From Candidatus Acidiferrales bacterium (GTDB lineage Bacteria; Bacteroidota; Ignavibacteria; Kryptoniales; JAKASW01): a stretch of 64,000 nt of DNA. Numbering within the stretch: the stretch's first letter is position 1; every line of letters begins with the position of its first letter. A program made the position numbers and the translations under genes. The notes under the pieces are model-generated. The model had not been told where the DNA came from, ran no database searches, and worked only from the letters and a program-made list of their open reading frames with translations. Below are positions 39,744 to 49,511 of this stretch, piece by piece. The stretch spans positions 1-64,000 of the forward strand of contig DATJAY010000011.1 of the NCBI GenBank assembly GCA_035515795.1, read 5' to 3'.

Positions 39744-40146
39744 TGCATGTAAAGGAAAGCGTGCGGTGAGGTTAGGCGTCATCGAAAAGGTCGACGGCGG
39801 CATTCAATAGTTATGATTCGACTGCCACTCTGACTCTCGTGTCCTAATTTGAATCCTATTTCGGATTGGAATCAAATTAACCACAAGGACCGTCAGGCGT
39901 CACTGAGGTTTTGATAACTCCAGACTGCCTTGCACCGCTTTGCCTTACTGGCGATCAACGTAACTCTTCATGTTTGGACTAAATCAAAATTGGATACTAT
40001 CGGGGGGTATCTTCGCTTGAATATTAGCTATCGCTGCTATAATTTCTCGTGTATGATCCCGTCCATGAGAGTCTAGAAGTCTTCGCGGCGCTACAGGTTG
40101 GTTTCGGGAAAGCATTTTCAGACTTAGAATGTTGGGAAGGAGTTTT
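39744..40146 (+). other. Intergenic stretch upstream of the LacI gene
   Basis: About 400 bases without a supported gene. An imperfect stem near 39845-39877 (AATTTGA with TCAAATT, plus ATCC with GGAT) could end the RND transcript. A small inverted repeat GATAC/GTATC (39993-39997 and 40007-40011, 9-nt spacer) lies about 135 nt upstream of the LacI start and could be an operator; support is weak. Confidence 0.35.
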
Positions 40147-41178
40147 ATGGGCTCAAGAGTTACTATATTGGATGTCATGCGTGAGGCCGGAGTGGGCATC
40201 GGCACAGTCTCCCGCGTGCTGAACAACTCTCCGCACGTCAGTCAGGAAAAGAGGAAGCGCGTTATGGAGGTTGCAAAGAGGCTAAATTATCAGCCGCATA
40301 CTTATGCTCAGCGGCTTGCGCGCCGCCAGGCTGAAACAATTTCTGCTATCATTCCCTTTTTCTCTACCTATTTCTTTGCGACCGTGCTTCATGGAGTACA
40401 GGATAGAAGCTCAGAGTTTGGCTATGACCTGGTGCTTTACGGCGTCAACCATGTGGATCAAATGGAGTCTCACATAAGCTCTGCGCTTCAGCGGGGAAAA
40501 GTTGATGGCCTCCTTTTTTTCTCGATGAAGCTCCCGCCTAAGACTGTACCACGATTGAAGGAATCCAAACTCCCGGTTGTGCTGGTTGACACCTCTCTTC
40601 CGGAATTTGATTCTATATCAGTTGCTAACGCCGAAGGCGCCTATACGGCGGTCAGACATCTGATACAGCTTGGTCATCGTTCGATCGGTATGATTGGTGC
40701 CCGATCGGTGAGCACTCCCGCGACTGAGAGACTCGATGGTTATAAACGGGCTCTCAATGAACAGGGGCTCGTTTTCTGCGAAGACTTGGTGAAGGTTGGA
40801 AATACTATAAAGTTTGACGGCTTCAACCGCGAAGCGGGTTATGAGGCCATGGTCGAGTTTATTAAGATGGGTAGTGACATGCCGAGAGCTTTTTTTATTT
40901 CGTCTGACATACAGGCGATGGGCGCCATTGCCGCGCTCACCGAAAACGGTTTCAGCGTGCCGGAAGACGTCGCAATCGTGGGGTTTGACGACATCGAACT
41001 CGCTGAATACTTCAAGTTAACTACCATGCGCCAGCCGATGTACCAGATGGGAGCACTTGCTGTTGAACGTCTCGTGAAGAGGATGTCGTCCCCCGACATG
41101 GAAATTCTTCACACCACATTTTCGCCAACATTGGTTGTCAGAGACAGCTGTGGTGCCTTGAACAGGAGCCGCGATTAG
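40147..41178 (+). CDS. LacI family transcriptional regulator
   Basis: A 343-residue regulator: N-terminal LacI helix-turn-helix and hinge (VTILDVMREAGVGIGTVSRV, then LNNSPHVSQEKRKRV and AKRLNYQP), followed by a periplasmic-binding-protein-like effector domain (ISAIIPFFSTYFFATVLHG, VDGLLFFSMK, GFDDIELAEYFKLTTMRQP). The ATG at 40147 is chosen over 40129 because GGAAGGAG lies just before it and the HTH begins immediately after. It stands 150 nt upstream of bioB, but a LacI protein regulating biotin genes would be unusual; LacI members normally sense sugars, so the target may be elsewhere. Confidence 0.9.
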   Translation: MGSRVTILDVMREAGVGIGTVSRVLNNSPHVSQEKRKRVMEVAKRLNYQPHTYAQRLARRQAETISAIIPFFSTYFFATVLHGVQDRSSEFGYDLVLYGVNHVDQMESHISSALQRGKVDGLLFFSMKLPPKTVPRLKESKLPVVLVDTSLPEFDSISVANAEGAYTAVRHLIQLGHRSIGMIGARSVSTPATERLDGYKRALNEQGLVFCEDLVKVGNTIKFDGFNREAGYEAMVEFIKMGSDMPRAFFISSDIQAMGAIAALTENGFSVPEDVAIVGFDDIELAEYFKLTTMRQPMYQMGALAVERLVKRMSSPDMEILHTTFSPTLVVRDSCGALNRSRD

Positions 41179-41182
41179 TTTT

Positions 41183-41220
41183 TCCCCACCTTTTGCCGAT
41201 AACCGGCAAATGTCGGGGGA
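41183..41220 (+). terminator. Stem-loop between the LacI gene and bioB
   Basis: TTTGCCG (41192-41198) pairs with CGGCAAA (41204-41210) over a 5-nt loop, and flanking TCCCC and GGGGGA can extend the stem. It lies just after the LacI stop and about 115 nt before bioB. It may terminate the LacI transcript or act as a leader structure for the biotin genes; no T-run follows. Confidence 0.4.
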
Positions 41221-41330
41221 TGCTTTAGGCACAGGCAGACGGCTGACTCTCTTTAAGAATCCATCCCCAGGGATTATATTCCCATTCAAGGAATTTCTAC
41301 GAATTATTCAACAGACAGAGAGTTATACTG

Positions 41331-42323
41331 ATGGAATCAATAAATGGAGAGCTTGCTGAAGTCCGTTATGATTGGACGAACGGTGAAATAAAAAGTATTT
41401 ATAATCTTCCGCTGCTTGAATTGATTTACGCCGCAGCGACTGTCCACAGACAATACCATAATCCCTCTGAGATCCAGGTTTGTTCACTTCTATCGATAAA
41501 GACGGGCGGGTGCACGGAAGATTGTGCCTACTGTTCACAATCCGTGCATTATAATACGGGCGTAGAGGTACAGTCGCTTCTTTCGTTCGATGAGGTTTTA
41601 AGGAAAGCGGAAAGCGCAAAGTACGCGGGCGCGACTAGATTCTGCATGGGGGCGGCATGGCGCGAGGTTCGTGACAATAAGGATTTCGACCGCGTATTGG
41701 AAATGGTAAGAGCAGTGAACGATCTCGGGCTCGAAGTGTGTGCCACTCTCGGAATGATTACTGAAGCTCAAGCACTGAAGCTCAAAGAAGCAGGATTGTA
41801 TGCTTACAATCATAACATTGACACTTCGGACGCGCATTATAAAAAGATAATTACGACTCGGACGTACCAGGATCGTCTGGACACAATTAAAAATACGCGG
41901 AAGGCGGCTATCACTGTCTGTTGCGGCGGCATCATCGGAATGGGAGAATCTATGGACGACCGCATCGCCATGCTGATGACGCTTGCCAATCTCAATCCGC
42001 ATCCGGAATCGGTTCCTATAAATGCACTAGTTCCAATCGAAGGGACGCCGCTGGAAGGTCAGGAACGGGTAAATGCGTGGGAATTTGCCAGGATGATTGC
42101 GACGGCAAGAATTGTCATGCCCAGATCTATCGTTAGACTTTCGGCAGGAAGACTTCAGCTTTCCCAGGAGGCTCAGGCGCTTTGTTTCCTTGCGGGAGCG
42201 AATTCCATTTTTGCCGGCGACAAGCTGCTGACTACTTCAAACCCCGCTCTCGATGAAGATGCAAAATTATTATCTGTGCTGGGGGTAAGACCGAGGAAAC
42301 CATTTGAGTCCATTAACGGATGA
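41331..42323 (+). CDS. bioB: Biotin synthase
   Basis: A 330-residue radical SAM enzyme that inserts sulfur into dethiobiotin, the last step of biotin synthesis. The [4Fe-4S]/SAM motif is [19 protein letters not shown] (CxxxCxxC). Other family landmarks are [32 protein letters not shown] and [13 protein letters not shown]; the Arg/Asn/Cys residues that hold the [2Fe-2S] cluster fall in [20 protein letters not shown] and IVRLSAGR. Length is normal. The ribosome binding site is weak. It begins a plus-strand run of biotin genes. Confidence 0.97.
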
Positions 42324-42365
42324 CGAAACGGTGGATAAGTAAATTATTTATCGTGGAACGAACCG

Positions 42366-43925
42366 GTGGCTGAAAAGAACGGGATGACATCATCAAACAA
42401 AAATGAGCGACTGGACATCCGGATCTCTTTCGTTTTGTTGATGCTCGCTGGCGTGTGCATATTCATGACGGAGAATCGTGACGGGGAGTTCGTCGCCGGA
42501 GGAGGGCTGTACGGCGGTAATTCTTTTCACTGCCTCGCCATCTCTAATAACCTCATGACCGGTGATCATCCTCTATTCATGTATGCAAGCAAGGAGCTGC
42601 ATCATGGTACGCCCGTCTATGATGCTTACAACAGATTTCCAATATTCCCTTTTCTACTTACCGGGTTACTGACGCATCCTTTTGAGCACAGCTTGGCACT
42701 GCAAACCTATGCAGCGCGCCAGTTGATGAATGTCTTTTTCTTCCTGACTATCGTAGCGGTGTTCCTGTTGGTGCAAAGGCTTGTGGGGAACAAGTACGCG
42801 GCGCTCGTAGTTACACTAGTGGCACTCTCATCATACTATATGCTTTCCTATCATGACATGATCTTCAATGACATCCCGGCGCTCTTGGGTTTTGTTGTGG
42901 CGCTGCATGGAGTGGTGATGGTACAAAAATCGAGTTTAAGAATCTCGAATGTTTTGTTTTATTCTTTGCTCCCCGTAAGTTTCGGATGGCAACCATACGC
43001 AGTTTATGCCACATGGCTTTTGATAGATGGAACAGAGCTTTTGTTTGGCGGGACGGGTCCGGTAAAGAAGAGATTTTCGACATTTGTTAAGCGGCCTTCG
43101 TTTGTCATTACAGGTGTAGCATTGCTCTGGGGTGCGCTGGTGCTTGGGCTGCAATTGTTCAACGAATGGAGAATTGTAGGCGGATCATTTGCAGATTTGC
43201 CAAGCGTAAACAGTGCACTCTGGAGAACAGGAATCGCCTCGGCACAGGGACACACACAGTTCTTATGGACATTTGACTGGGCCAGCTACCTTCCGGCGCA
43301 GGCACATGCGATGGCGTTAATGCTTATTCCATTCTGGCCGGTTCTGCAGGTCGAACCGGGCACGAATGCTTCAGCCCTCCTCGTGATATCACTGGTTGCT
43401 TACAGTGTGCTGAGGTACATGAAGGACAAATCTGCCGCGAATAAAGTTCACGTCGTGATGATTTTTTCGGGTTTGTTGTGGACATTTCCGATGAAGAACT
43501 TTGTGGCTCTCCACGAATTCCAATCTATTTTCTACGTAGGGTTTGCAGTTAGCGTGTATACGACGCTTCTCTCGCTATTGCATTTTAATTTGTCCTCGTG
43601 GCGACTTCTTGCGGTAGATATCTCTCTGGCTTTTCTTATCGCGCTCTCTATGTTCAATCATCTTCAAACTCAGTCTTCGGACATGAATCGGATTACGGCC
43701 GAATTTCAGAACATTCGTGAGTTCTTGCCACAAAATGGAAAAGTCTACGTCGATGGCGATCGCCAGCGAATGTTAGCATCCCATGCAATTGATTTTTTTC
43801 TCGCCGGCTGCTGGCTCACGCCGCCTCAGGAGGCTGACTACGTCGTTTCTCAGAGATCCGATTATGGTGGAGAGAAGCTGACTTTTAATTCTGAATTCAA
43901 CTTGTTTAAAGCATCAGGCAAGTGA
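42366..43925 (+). CDS. GT-C-like polytopic membrane protein within the biotin cluster
   Basis: A 519-residue protein with about ten to twelve helices. The long first luminal/periplasmic loop (GGNSFHCLAISNNL, then HHGTPVYDAYNRFPIFPFLL) followed by helix pairs resembles GT39/ArnT-type glycosyltransferases of the GT-C fold, but I see no firm family signature and the usual acidic DE/ED catalytic pair is not obvious. The start is GTG at 42366 or the ATG at 42384. It lies 42 nt after bioB and only 1 nt before the bioF start codon, so it is transcribed, and probably translated, with the biotin genes. A role in biotin metabolism or transport is not known for this family. Confidence 0.6.
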   Translation: MAEKNGMTSSNKNERLDIRISFVLLMLAGVCIFMTENRDGEFVAGGGLYGGNSFHCLAISNNLMTGDHPLFMYASKELHHGTPVYDAYNRFPIFPFLLTGLLTHPFEHSLALQTYAARQLMNVFFFLTIVAVFLLVQRLVGNKYAALVVTLVALSSYYMLSYHDMIFNDIPALLGFVVALHGVVMVQKSSLRISNVLFYSLLPVSFGWQPYAVYATWLLIDGTELLFGGTGPVKKRFSTFVKRPSFVITGVALLWGALVLGLQLFNEWRIVGGSFADLPSVNSALWRTGIASAQGHTQFLWTFDWASYLPAQAHAMALMLIPFWPVLQVEPGTNASALLVISLVAYSVLRYMKDKSAANKVHVVMIFSGLLWTFPMKNFVALHEFQSIFYVGFAVSVYTTLLSLLHFNLSSWRLLAVDISLAFLIALSMFNHLQTQSSDMNRITAEFQNIREFLPQNGKVYVDGDRQRMLASHAIDFFLAGCWLTPPQEADYVVSQRSDYGGEKLTFNSEFNLFKASGK

Positions 43926-43926
43926 C

Positions 43927-45078
43927 ATGACTGATATAGAGGAAAAGCTTCAGAAGGCACTTGAACAGAGGGAGAGCGATCATTCACTCCGGAGTCTTCC
44001 TGACGAACATAGGGGTACACCAAGCGACAGACTTATAGATTTCTGTTCCAATGACTACCTGGGATTTTCCCGTTCTGAAATTCTCCGCGAAAAAATTTTG
44101 CAGGCAGAGAGGCTATATGACGATGCACGGATCGGCTCGACGGGCTCGCGACTCATATCGGGAAATACTCGGTTATGTGAAGAACTTGAGGATCAAATTG
44201 CAAAATTTCACCACGCTGAAGCGGGGTTGATCTTCAATTCCGGTTATGATGCGAATGTCGGGATTTTTTCCAGCATGCCGGAAAGAACCGACACGATTCT
44301 CTACGACCAACTTGTTCATGCTTCGATCAGGGACGGAATAAGATTGAGTTACGCACGCAGTTTTTCATTCAGACACAATGACCTCGCAGAACTGGAAAGG
44401 AGACTCAACGCGGCGACTGGAAATATTTTTGTCGCTCTCGAGTCCGTATACTCGATGGATGGCGACTGTGCGCCGCTCGTCGAGATATCGGAATTGTGCG
44501 GTCGGTTTGATGCAAATCTGATCGTAGATGAAGCGCACGCAACCGGCGTGTTCGGGGAAAAAGGCGAAGGAAAAGTTGTTGAGCTTGGAATAGAAGAAAA
44601 GATTTTTGCGCGGCTTCATACATTTGGGAAGGCACTCGGCTGTCATGGTTCCATCGTGGTGGGTTCTGAGATTCTTCGCTCATATCTCATTAATTTTGCG
44701 CGCTCATTTATCTACACAACCGCTTTGCCTTTCCATAGCCTGGTTGCCGTCAAGTGCGCATACGAAATGTTGGGCTCGGACCCCCGCCCACTCCATTGCC
44801 TAAGAAATCGCATCTCTTACTTCAAGAAGAAGACTCCCAAATCATTGGCAGAGAGAATGATCCAAAGCGACAGTGCGATTCAATCCCTTATCATCCCTGG
44901 CAATCCCGTCGTCAGAGAATTCGCCGATCAGATCCAAAAAGCGGGCTTCGATGTCCGCCCGATATTGCACCCGACTGTTCCGAGCGGGTCAGAGCGGCTG
45001 CGGATTTGTCTCCATTCATTCAATCAAGAATCGGAAATCGACGGATTGATCGAGACTCTATCTTCACAATCGTCATGA
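43927..45078 (+). CDS. bioF: 8-amino-7-oxononanoate synthase
   Basis: A 383-residue PLP enzyme that condenses pimeloyl-thioester with L-alanine, the first dedicated step of the biotin ring pathway. Motifs: DFCSNDYLGFSRSE, IGSTGSRLISGNTRLCEELE, VDEAHATGVFGEKG (PLP-binding Asp and His) and the Schiff-base Lys in HTFGKALGCHGS. It overlaps bioD by 4 nt (ATGA). The neighbouring bioD and bioA genes make the assignment firm over related alpha-oxoamine synthases such as Kbl. Confidence 0.94.
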   Translation: MTDIEEKLQKALEQRESDHSLRSLPDEHRGTPSDRLIDFCSNDYLGFSRSEILREKILQAERLYDDARIGSTGSRLISGNTRLCEELEDQIAKFHHAEAGLIFNSGYDANVGIFSSMPERTDTILYDQLVHASIRDGIRLSYARSFSFRHNDLAELERRLNAATGNIFVALESVYSMDGDCAPLVEISELCGRFDANLIVDEAHATGVFGEKGEGKVVELGIEEKIFARLHTFGKALGCHGSIVVGSEILRSYLINFARSFIYTTALPFHSLVAVKCAYEMLGSDPRPLHCLRNRISYFKKKTPKSLAERMIQSDSAIQSLIIPGNPVVREFADQIQKAGFDVRPILHPTVPSGSERLRICLHSFNQESEIDGLIETLSSQSS

Positions 45079-45701
45079 GCAGGATTTTTGTAACCGGGAT
45101 TGGAACGGGGATAGGAAAGACGTTTGTATCTGCCATACTTGTGGAGGCTCTGCATGCGGATTACTGGAAACCAGTTCAGTCGGGGGACCTGGATAATTCG
45201 GATACGATGACGGTGCGGCGACTGATCTCGAATCCGGTTTCCGTTCTTCATCCGGAAGCTTATCGCCTGACGCACGCGCTCTCCCCGCATGTAGCTGCCG
45301 AGATGGACGGCATTGAGATAGACCTGGAGAAAATTCGCTCTTTGATTCCTATCGTCAAAGATCGCCATCTTATCATCGAAGGCGCCGGTGGCGCAATGTC
45401 GCCGGTCAATGGTTCTTCGGTAGTACTTGATCTAATCGAGCTTCTCGAAGCTGAAACCGTTATCGTTTCAAGGAACTATCTTGGGAGTATCAATCATACG
45501 CTTCTTACCATAGACGCAATAAAACGAAGAAGAATATCCATTCGAGGTTTGATCTTTAACGGAAAGGAAGAAAAAGCCTCGGTTGATTTTATCTTGAAAC
45601 ATTCCGGCGCGAGTCTTCTCGGATCCGTCGGTGAAGAAAGGGTCTTAGACAAGAATGCCGTGAGCAAATATGCTGGCACATTCAAGGGAATATTTAAATA
45701 G
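45075..45701 (+). CDS. bioD: ATP-dependent dethiobiotin synthetase
   Basis: A 208-residue enzyme that carboxylates 7,8-diaminopelargonate to dethiobiotin using ATP. The P-loop is VTGIGTGIGKTFVSAIL; YWKPVQSG carries the substrate-binding Lys; HALSPHVAAE and IEGAGGAMSPV are further BioD signatures. The ATG at 45075 overlaps the bioF stop, and the stop abuts the bioA ATG directly, so translation of the three is probably coupled. Confidence 0.95.
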   Translation: MSRIFVTGIGTGIGKTFVSAILVEALHADYWKPVQSGDLDNSDTMTVRRLISNPVSVLHPEAYRLTHALSPHVAAEMDGIEIDLEKIRSLIPIVKDRHLIIEGAGGAMSPVNGSSVVLDLIELLEAETVIVSRNYLGSINHTLLTIDAIKRRRISIRGLIFNGKEEKASVDFILKHSGASLLGSVGEERVLDKNAVSKYAGTFKGIFK

Positions 45702-46985
45702 ATGAACCTTTCCGAGCGCGACAGCAAAGTCATTTGGCATCCTTACACGCAGATGCAAACTGCGGAACTTCCGGTTGCGATCGTTCGCGGTGAAGGCGCG
45801 CGCTTGTATGATGAGGACGGAAAAGAGTACATTGATGCCATCTCGTCATGGTGGGTGAACGTTCATGGCCATGCAAATCGGTATATCGGGCAGAAAATCC
45901 ACGAGCAGCTTCAGGTTTTAGAGCATGTTATATTCGCCGGGTTCACACATCAACCTGCAGTCGAGCTTGCGGAGCGTTTGATAAAAGTCCTACCTCAAAA
46001 TCAGTCGAGGATTTTTTATTCCGACGATGGCTCAACGGCGGTCGAAGTCGCGGTGAAGATGGCATTGCAATACTGGTACAATCAGGGAATAAACAAAAAG
46101 ACAATTGTTGCTTTTCGAAACTCATATCATGGAGACACGTTCGGCGCGATGTCGGTAAGTGAGCGTGATATTTTTACCGCGCCATTCCGGGATTTGTTGT
46201 TTGATGTGGCCTTTATTGACGCACCGCTAAAAGGGATTGAAAGAGAATCTCTTGATCAGCTGGAACGTGAACTGCAAAAGGAAAATGTAGCTGCATTTAT
46301 TTTCGAGCCGCTTCTGCAGGGTGCCGGCGGGATGATTGTCTACGAAGCTCCGCCTTTGGACGAGCTCATTTATTTTTGCCGCGAAAAAGGAATACCGACA
46401 ATTGCCGACGAAGTTCTGACGGGATTCGGCAGGACAGGAAAATTTTTTGCATCCGATTATCTAAAAAACAAACCGGACATCATTTGTATGTCGAAGGGTA
46501 TTACAGGCGGCACGATGCCTTTTGGTGCGACTTCATGTACGGAAAAAGTCTATGAAGCCTTTCTGTCCGATGACAGGAAAAAGACTTTCTTCCACGGCCA
46601 TTCTTACACGGGGAATCCTGCAGCATGTGCCGCGGCCCTTGCAAGTCTCGATCTGTTCGAGAAACCCGGGACGTGGGACAATATCCGGAGAATCGAATCG
46701 AGCCACCGGGAATTCCTTTCAAGAATTCGTAATCATCCCATTGTGGAGAAACCACGACAGATCGGAACGATCATGGCATTCGACGCGAAATGCGGAGAGC
46801 AGACATCATATCTGCACTCATTGAGGGACAGGATGAGTCATTTCTGCTTGACCCACGGCGTTATCATCCGGCCTCTCGGAAATATTATTTATTTTATGCC
46901 GCCATACTGTATTACGGATGAGGAGTTGAGCAGAGTTTATTCCACGATACAAGCCATGTTGCTTGAGATTGACAACTTGAAATGA
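45702..46985 (+). CDS. bioA: Adenosylmethionine-8-amino-7-oxononanoate aminotransferase
   Basis: A 427-residue class III aminotransferase that uses SAM as amino donor to make 7,8-diaminopelargonate. Landmarks: WHPYTQM near the N-terminus, ISSWWVNVHGHANRYI with the tandem Trp typical of BioA, SYHGDTFGAMSVS, IADEVLTGFGRTGKFFA with the PLP-contact Asp, and the Schiff-base Lys in ICMSKGITGGTMP. It starts on the base after the bioD stop. Confidence 0.95.
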   Translation: MNLSERDSKVIWHPYTQMQTAELPVAIVRGEGARLYDEDGKEYIDAISSWWVNVHGHANRYIGQKIHEQLQVLEHVIFAGFTHQPAVELAERLIKVLPQNQSRIFYSDDGSTAVEVAVKMALQYWYNQGINKKTIVAFRNSYHGDTFGAMSVSERDIFTAPFRDLLFDVAFIDAPLKGIERESLDQLERELQKENVAAFIFEPLLQGAGGMIVYEAPPLDELIYFCREKGIPTIADEVLTGFGRTGKFFASDYLKNKPDIICMSKGITGGTMPFGATSCTEKVYEAFLSDDRKKTFFHGHSYTGNPAACAAALASLDLFEKPGTWDNIRRIESSHREFLSRIRNHPIVEKPRQIGTIMAFDAKCGEQTSYLHSLRDRMSHFCLTHGVIIRPLGNIIYFMPPYCITDEELSRVYSTIQAMLLEIDNLK

Positions 46986-47033: not shown

Positions 47034-47690
47034 ATGAATATCTCATTTGCCGGTAAACTAGAGGCTGTTTTGCTTCTGATGGTTTCGTTCGTTGCCCTGT
47101 CCTGCAAATCTGACAATACTCTCGTCGCTCCAACTTTAACGACGTCGATTGTAACAGGATTGTGGATCACCAACTCGTCTGGCCCAACTCCGATTGCGGT
47201 ATGGGGAAATCCGTCGGATGGTTCCGGGTCTGGAAGTGGGGGATTCGGATTCAATGGGGGCATCAATGAGAGATCTGACAGTATTGTGGCGGGGATCCCA
47301 AGGTATTTTGTATTTCATATTCCCTATCCAAATCCTGCTCCGGGTGTGACAGAGTTTGTGTTTGATTTGCCAATTCAATCGGTCGTTGATCTCTGGATTG
47401 TAAAGGCTCGTTGGGTCGGTGAGCAAAGTTCTGATGAGACGCTCGAAGGAAGTGCTACGACAATTACACCGGAGAGGAACACGGTAAAGATCTTTCTTCG
47501 CAGCAATCTAATGTATGCGGGCCAGCATACTGAAACGTGGAGCGGCACTGACGATAACGGGAGGCCAGTGCCCGCCGGCTTTTATAGAGTGTATTGGCGC
47601 GTCAATGGGTTCTTAGCATTTCACGACATCTTTTTATATCGGCAGTTGTCGGACTTACCTATTGATCTTCGAAAAATCACGGATGTTTGA
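47034..47690 (+). CDS. Lipoprotein with FlgD-like C-terminal domain
   Basis: A 218-residue predicted lipoprotein: signal peptide with a lipobox (FVALSC, Cys near residue 24), a glycine/serine-rich stretch (GSGSGSGGFGFNGG), and a C-terminal beta-sandwich that resembles the FlgD/T9SS-associated Ig-like fold (HTETWSGTDDNGRPVPAGFY). The motif FHIPYPNPAPG also recalls the YPNP segment of the sorting domains. The start follows GGGAGATTTAAA. It stands 48 nt after bioA but has no obvious link to biotin. Confidence 0.6.
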   Translation: MNISFAGKLEAVLLLMVSFVALSCKSDNTLVAPTLTTSIVTGLWITNSSGPTPIAVWGNPSDGSGSGSGGFGFNGGINERSDSIVAGIPRYFVFHIPYPNPAPGVTEFVFDLPIQSVVDLWIVKARWVGEQSSDETLEGSATTITPERNTVKIFLRSNLMYAGQHTETWSGTDDNGRPVPAGFYRVYWRVNGFLAFHDIFLYRQLSDLPIDLRKITDV

Positions 47691-47729: not shown

Positions 47730-48245
47730 ATGAAAAAGTATTATTTGTTCTTCTGCACGATTGCTCTTCAATGTATTCTTGCGGTGAGTACGTTCGCTCA
47801 AGACAGTAGTTCGACTCCGACTTATGGACTGACCGCTTCATTTCAAAGCAGCCAGCTTGACATACTTGTTCCTATCTGGGTCAGCAAAATGGTTTCGCTT
47901 GCCCCTGCCGTGGGACTGGCGTGGGAAGATGGCACAGGTGCCGACCTTCACATAGGAATTGTCCCGCGTTTCTACCTGACAAAGAAAAAAGTTTCACCAT
48001 ATCTGGGGCTACAAATCGCAATGCTTAAGATCATCCCTGCAGGAGGAGCGGGAGTTGCGTCGACTACCGATTGGCTCGCCGGACTGGCATTTGGCGGAGA
48101 ATATTTCTTTGATGAGCATTTAAGTTTTGGCGTGGAGTCTCAAGCTAATTTCACTTATTCTGATCAGAACTCATCTCGATTCGGAAACCCGGGAAAAACG
48201 AATCTCAACACTGCAGCTGCAGTCTTTGCGACGGTATATTTCTAA
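47730..48245 (+). CDS. Small outer-membrane beta-barrel-like protein
   Basis: A 171-residue exported protein: signal peptide (MKKYYLFFCTIALQCILAVS, cleavage near TFAQ) followed by alternating-pattern strands (YGLTASFQSSQLDILVPIWV, DLHIGIVPRFYLT, YLGLQIAMLKII, LAGLAFGGEYFF, FGVESQANFTYS) and a terminal aromatic (VYF), as in eight-stranded OmpW/OmpA-like barrels. GAAAGGAG precedes the ATG. Function unknown. Confidence 0.6.
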   Translation: MKKYYLFFCTIALQCILAVSTFAQDSSSTPTYGLTASFQSSQLDILVPIWVSKMVSLAPAVGLAWEDGTGADLHIGIVPRFYLTKKKVSPYLGLQIAMLKIIPAGGAGVASTTDWLAGLAFGGEYFFDEHLSFGVESQANFTYSDQNSSRFGNPGKTNLNTAAAVFATVYF

Positions 48246-48305
48246 AAAATATTCGAGTATCTTCGCGGCTCGTGATCTCCATGTGGTCGATTGAGATGGC
48301 GGATA

Positions 48306-49511
48306 ATGAAAAACTCTGACAAACATATTGCGATTACCGGCATGGGATCGATCTCTCCGCTCGGCGCGTGCCGCGATGATGTGTGGAAAACCTACGAACG
48401 GCGGAAAAGCATGATTAAGCCGAAGGTCTTCAACGGTGAGCAAGTGCCCGTTGGAAGTCTTTGCGATGGATCGGAAGAAATCATCGAATCGATTCGGCAT
48501 GAGAATCCAGACTATAGAAACCTTGATAGGACTGTCATCATGGCGATCTATGCGGCACGTGAAGCCGTCAGACAAGAGGGTTGGGATAAATCTGATCCGT
48601 CGCGCACCGGCATAAATATCGGCTCTTCCAGAGGAGCAACAGAACTTCTTGAGAAGAGACACTCAGAGTATCTTACCAATCCATCTCAACGCCTGTTCCC
48701 CCTCACTTCGCCGACCACCACACTCGGTAATATCTCAAGCAGTGTTGCCCATGATATTGAAGTCGACGGTCCGACGATCAGCCATTCTGTTACATGCAGC
48801 ACTGCACTTCATGCGGTATTCAATGGAATAGCGTGGATGCGCGCGGGAATGGCCGATAGGTTCATTGTCGGGGGAGCGGAGGCACCGCTCACGGGGTTTA
48901 CTATCGCGCAGATGAAGTCTCTCAGGATTTACACGAATGAAGTCGACGCGGTCTACCCATGCAGACCATGCTCATCCGAATCTCCGCTCCATGATACATT
49001 AACGCTTGGAGAAGGGGCCGCTCTTTTTACACTCGAAATGCTGAACGATGGCGAATTGGTAGATAAAAAAGTACTTGGAGTCATTGACTCGGTTGGTTAT
49101 GCCCAGGAAAATTCAAAGACGCCGACTGCGATTACAGAGGAGGGGAGCGCATTGCGGAGATCGATGAAGATGGCACTGGAAAACATGGCGACCACGTCTT
49201 CTGTCGACATGGTAATTCTTCATGCGCCCGGTACCGTGAAGGGCGACGCCAGCGAGCTGACAGCTGTCAAGACGATATTTGGAGATAACTTGCCAGTTCT
49301 CGTCTCGAACAAGTGGCTTATTGGGCACACCTTCGGAGCATCGGGAGCGTTAAGTCTTGAATTTGCGCTTCTCATGCTGGCAGGGAATTGCTACGTCGAT
49401 TTTCCTTATCCGGTTGTCTTTAAGAATGAAAGCAAGCTGATCAAAAAAATTATGATTAACGCTGCAGGCTTCGGGGGAAATGCAGCGAGCTTAATCGTAT
49501 CACTGGTTTAA
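48306..49511 (+). CDS. Beta-ketoacyl synthase (KAS II-type)
   Basis: A 401-residue condensing enzyme of the FabF/KAS II type. The Cys-His-His triad is visible: nucleophile Cys in SHSVTCSTALHAVFNG, His in ILHAPGTVKGDASE and His in LIGHTFGASGALSLE. The N-terminus IAITGMGSISPLGACRDDVW is typical. The ORF can be read from a TTG at 48291, but the ATG at 48306 fits the family. As the cluster lacks bioC and bioH, this enzyme may help build the pimeloyl chain; alternatively it is a general or secondary-metabolism ketosynthase. No acyl-carrier protein gene is adjacent. Confidence 0.88.
   Translation: MKNSDKHIAITGMGSISPLGACRDDVWKTYERRKSMIKPKVFNGEQVPVGSLCDGSEEIIESIRHENPDYRNLDRTVIMAIYAAREAVRQEGWDKSDPSRTGINIGSSRGATELLEKRHSEYLTNPSQRLFPLTSPTTTLGNISSSVAHDIEVDGPTISHSVTCSTALHAVFNGIAWMRAGMADRFIVGGAEAPLTGFTIAQMKSLRIYTNEVDAVYPCRPCSSESPLHDTLTLGEGAALFTLEMLNDGELVDKKVLGVIDSVGYAQENSKTPTAITEEGSALRRSMKMALENMATTSSVDMVILHAPGTVKGDASELTAVKTIFGDNLPVLVSNKWLIGHTFGASGALSLEFALLMLAGNCYVDFPYPVVFKNESKLIKKIMINAAGFGGNAASLIVSLV

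Follow-up and report, generated by a model that had tools for sequence, protein, structure and literature searches.

An additional gene within a biotin operon

The stretch of DNA analysed here (hereafter the window; 64,000 nucleotides of contig DATJAY010000011.1 from the Candidatus Acidiferrales bacterium assembly GCA_035515795.1) contains a biotin operon. Its enzymes and their order are those of the standard bacterial bioB-bioF-bioD-bioA operon, but one additional gene lies between bioB and bioF, the sole such case among the 16 intervals read (the window's included). The features are as follows:

41331..42323, + strand: bioB, biotin synthase (TIGR00433, 407.8 bits, cut-off 225)
42324..43926, + strand: extra segment relative to related operons, consisting of a 42-nt leader, the putative passenger gene and a 1-nt spacer (the bioB and bioF match ends lie 16-186 nt apart in 6/6 genus-mates; junction DNA compared by eye)
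42366..43925, + strand: putative passenger gene, encoding a 519-aa polytopic membrane protein that is at most weakly GT-C-like (ORF and homologue alignment; PMT match in the G011 homologue only)
43927..45078, + strand: bioF, 8-amino-7-oxononanoate synthase (best model TIGR00858, 347.8 bits, below the cut-off of 426.45; follows bioB in relatives too)
45075..45701, + strand: bioD, dethiobiotin synthase (TIGR00347, 123.3 bits, cut-off 83.3)
45702..46985, + strand: bioA, DAPA aminotransferase (TIGR00508, 557.7 bits, cut-off 405)

Thus, bioB, bioD and bioA passed their NCBIfam equivalog cut-offs and bioF scored below its own. The start of bioD was set by eye at an ATG overlapping the bioF stop codon (the listed ORF begins at 44754). 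In the ORF list of the window, the membrane-protein ORF runs on the + strand from a GTG start codon at 42366 to a stop at 43925 (519 codons), being separated by 42 nt from the bioB stop codon (ending at 42323) and by 1 nt from the ATG of bioF (43927). These coordinates confirm the first-pass annotation, which had placed a 519-residue polytopic protein between bioB and bioF, one base before the bioF start codon. Judging from this position, the gene is probably co-transcribed and expressed with the biotin operon. Consensus promoter matches in the region 41100-44100 numbered 7 versus 3.6 ± 2.0 in shuffled sequences, an excess from which nothing firm can be drawn. The GC content of the gene (0.476) was close to that of the window (0.470), and a foreign signature is therefore absent by this measure; neither a target-site duplication nor a mobile element was seen around 42324-43926. 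The window genome holds a single copy of the gene.

The ORF encodes a conserved membrane protein

Two full homologues were found, one in G011 from the same genus (52% identity over nearly the full length) and the other in G642, a class-mate from another family (51% in the alignment). The pairwise protein identities were 51.0% between the window genome (G000) and G011, 51.7% between the window genome and G642, and 45.9% between G011 and G642, while the BioB proteins of G011 and the window genome share 73%, well above the 51.0% of the membrane protein. In pairwise comparisons of the three family members, silent sites were saturated (pS 0.79-0.88) and pN was low (0.30-0.35), indicating that the protein is under purifying selection. 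Homologues at 51-52% identity with such limited amino-acid change identify a real gene rather than a chance ORF. The three-member alignment contains the invariant stretches Y[DN]AYNRFP[IV]FPFL, FNDIPALxGF, LGLQLxNEWRIVGG, MLIPFWP and FQSIFY. At the Kyte-Doolittle threshold used, six hydrophobic segments were found in the window copy, which is therefore polytopic, with eight in the G011 copy and seven in the G642 copy.

Related biotin clusters lack the gene

Eight of the 13 genus genomes contain bioB (the window's included). G005 was dropped from the count of bioB-bioF intervals because its bioB and bioF run into the ends of contigs. In all six genus-mates with both genes on one contig (G001, G002, G009, G010, G011 and G012), bioB and bioF are adjacent, with their match ends 16-186 nt apart and no membrane-gene match between them (tblastn, E ≤ 1e-5). 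The outgroup sample comprised 87 genomes outside the genus, nine of which, all class-mates, had bioB at E ≤ 1e-60; in 9/9 of these, no more than about 130 nt separates the bioB match from the start of the bioF match, and no membrane-gene match was found in the bioB-bioF stretch. The first-pass annotation had raised the question of whether the order bioB-membrane protein-bioF is conserved in other genomes, and the answer is no, the gene being missing from 15 of the 15 readable related clusters. Nor does the gene co-occur with biotin genes across genomes, since it is missing from these 15 operons and present in G642, where no bioB match was detected.

In a FastTree phylogeny of bioB plus bioF, the nine class-mates fell outside the genus, and the window genome branched first within it (support 0.815). 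Because the window genome is perhaps the first branch, the genus-mates alone cannot decide between gain and loss; given the outside position of the nine class-mates, however, the simplest history is that the gene was inserted once, on the branch leading to the window genome. On grounds of parsimony, insertion is thus probably the correct reading over repeated loss.

Other copies of the gene lie at different loci

The G011 copy is located on contig 6, behind a Memo-family gene (PF01875), whereas the bio operon of this genome is on contig 9. This locus (L003:8306-9922) is an insertion polymorphism, with the gene present in G011 and missing from the near-identical G005, although the DNA of the two genomes around the Memo site is 96-98% identical. 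The Memo C-terminus reads YLK in five of the eight other genus genomes read (G005 included) and YLKH, YLKK and YIR once each; that of G011 uniquely ends in YTTN, and the first possible start codon (TTG) of the membrane gene overlaps the Memo stop codon. The lack of the gene in G005, together with a deviant Memo end in G011 only, indicates that the G011 copy is a derived insertion.

The G642 copy adjoins a Mutator-family transposase (PF00872). Four membrane proteins further along G642 were scanned: one passed the PMT_2 cut-off, another matched PMT_2 and a TMEM260-like model below cut-off, and two matched neither. No bioB match at E ≤ 1e-20 was found in G642 (scored 90% complete, though a single contig) or in its congeners G200 and G605. 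At the matching place in G200, a remnant of the last 26 codons was found (L094, G200:C1:606404-606490; 92% DNA identity over 77 nt), which shows that loss by deletion also occurs.

The family is sparse

At E ≤ 0.001, the family was present in two of the 13 genomes of the genus, three of the 391 of the class and one of the 80 of G642's family. In a phylum sample of 395 genomes, a two-member profile matched only the window genome itself at E ≤ 1e-8. In a sample of equal size, a three-member profile at E ≤ 0.01 matched five genomes: the window genome, G200 through its remnant, and three others in which the matches were short and weak (E 0.003-0.008). Scans of genome contigs gave no match in the first round and one locus in the second (record JAJYIT010000032.1, taken as the contig of G011). 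The gene had no match in plasmids, in IMG/VR viral contigs or in PADLOC, and only short, chance-like matches came up when the inserts were searched for repeats and target-site duplications. This membrane-protein family is sparse and uncharacterised and has no link to biotin.

Relationship to GT-C glycosyltransferases

The description of the protein as GT-C-like in the first-pass annotation is plausible but weak. In its favour is a match of the G011 homologue to PF02366 (PMT; residues 117-210, profile positions 82-176), which scored 22.7 bits, the value of the curated cut-off itself (E 8.5e-5), so that one of the three family members reached the cut-off, exactly at threshold. Against it, neither the window copy nor the G642 copy had a PMT match; the sole Pfam match of the window copy up to E = 10 was at chance level (E 0.92), and PF02366, when searched against the window genome, hit another gene and not this one. 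The family had no NCBIfam match, and a sequence search of the PDB gave chance-level matches only.

When a two-member profile was compared with the ORFs around the PMT matches of the genus, the best match was a PMT-matching protein in the same region, at 5.5 bits, a hint at most. A three-member profile compared with eight PMT-matching genus proteins performed no better than an RND control (the profile is thin, Neff 1.7); these eight were drawn from 12 PF02366 matches, leaving out the G011 homologue, a match in a short frame and two divergent proteins. Comparison with three proteins encoded near the G642/G200 locus, among them two orthologues of one PMT_2-type protein, gave nothing above chance. 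AlphaFold2 reached a mean pLDDT of 40.4 with one sequence and 35.6 with two, too low for use, and a Foldseek search of the two-sequence model against the PDB returned 0 matches at E ≤ 0.001, a model of such low confidence making matches meaningless.

GT-C enzymes carry one or more conserved acidic catalytic residues in the first external loop. In the eight aligned PMT-matching genus proteins, this loop contains an invariant D-E pair. At the positions of the first-loop acidic residues of G011 (ND...D), the window copy has G and H and G642 has S and H, with the register uncertain. Like the PMT and PMT_2 glycosyltransferases (PF02366 and PF13231; GT-C fold, GT39-like), members of this family are polytopic and about 520 residues long; unlike them, the window and G642 copies have no profile match, the acidic first-loop positions appear to be replaced in the window copy and no profile-profile link was found. 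A glycosyltransferase activity is suggested by the borderline PMT match of the G011 homologue. From sequence, our best guess, somewhat favoured, is that the family represents divergent envelope glycosyltransferases. A polytopic protein outside the GT-C group, such as a transporter or flippase, is the less probable but serious alternative. It would fit the lack of a PMT match in two of three members, the outcome of the RND control and the NCBIfam and PDB searches; the threshold match of G011, the best profile match (5.5 bits though it is) and, in our reading of the alignments, a length of about 520 aa and an extended loop following helix one, both reminiscent of GT-C proteins, all speak against it. 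Such a protein would likewise be a passenger, a matter independent of the GT-C question.

The membrane gene as a probable passenger of the biotin operon

The absence of the gene from the biotin clusters of 15/15 readable relatives and the location of both homologues elsewhere indicate that it is almost certainly a hitchhiker with no part in biotin synthesis. We consider it very likely (probability about 0.9) that the ORF is a passenger inserted between bioB and bioF, a single gene of a rare family that is probably co-transcribed with the operon and has a function apart from biotin. The observation is real and its meaning ordinary. Of the two options in the first-pass annotation, the passenger gene is therefore supported, while a role in handling a biotin precursor is not, given that G642 has no bioB match and the G011 copy lies away from the bio operon. 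Also in favour of a passenger, the window protein is as close to that of G642 from another family (51.7%) as to that of the genus-mate G011 (51.0%). According to this scenario, a single gene would have entered between bioB and bioF, in the direction of the operon, in the lineage of the window genome, and the operon would merely lend its transcription to an unrelated gene. The protein's own job would most likely be in the cell envelope, where it may, like GT-C/PMT-type enzymes, use a polyprenyl-phosphate carrier as the donor in sugar transfer.

Several observations run counter to this reading. With one base between it and bioF, the gene is packed as closely as is usual for co-selected genes, and the insert has no foreign GC signature, target-site duplication or mobile element. 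The passenger reading is also weakened by the loss through deletion in G200, the G005 bio operon being unreadable at contig ends, and the 90% completeness of G642. A biotin-pathway gene, that is, a membrane protein that handles, imports or modifies a precursor (pimelate or KAPA) in this lineage, would account for the gene's place within the operon, a single base from the bioF start, as well as for the purifying selection; nevertheless, it is extremely unlikely, as the gene is missing from all 15 related bio operons read, occurs in G642 where bioB is undetectable, sits away from the bio operon in G011, and accompanies an operon whose other genes are bioB, bioF, bioD and bioA. It is also very unlikely that the gene was ancestral in the bioB-bioF interval and was lost many times in relatives. 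The G200 remnant documents one loss in the family and the window genome may branch first in its genus (support 0.815), but the gene would have had to disappear from the remaining lineages of the genus and from each of the nine outgroup operons read, and the intervals of the six genus-mates contain no match to the gene (tblastn, E ≤ 1e-5).

Within the passenger reading, the family might consist of promoterless single-gene membrane proteins that spread as a bare ORF and lodge tightly behind a host gene of the same direction, although we regard this as unlikely. The host gene would be bioB in the window and Memo in G011, where the insertion would have replaced the last codons of Memo. Recognizing a passenger removes a false lead, namely that biotin synthesis includes a novel membrane step, and illustrates cleanly that genes packed tightly in one operon need not serve the same pathway. 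With no NCBIfam match and one borderline Pfam match, the family may be a diverged offshoot of the envelope glycosyltransferases.

Other genes around the operon

A FabF-like beta-ketoacyl synthase gene (48291-49511 in the window) was found after bioA in 6/6 genus-mates and on a G005 contig. It is therefore this ketoacyl synthase, not the membrane gene, that forms a conserved addition to the biotin cluster; as a speculation, it might be the source of the pimeloyl chain. A LacI-family regulator is encoded upstream of bioB in the window (40129-41178) and behind the ketoacyl synthase in 4/6 genus-mates, and was not observed in the regions retrieved for the remaining two; it is possibly a regulator of the cluster that moved in one lineage. 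Between bioA and the ketoacyl synthase, the window contains two ORFs (47034-47690, with a weak flagellar-hook-assembly-like match at E 0.013, and 47730-48245). Neither had a tblastn match (E ≤ 1e-5) in the eight genus-mate stretches searched, and the window operon may thus have acquired further genes.
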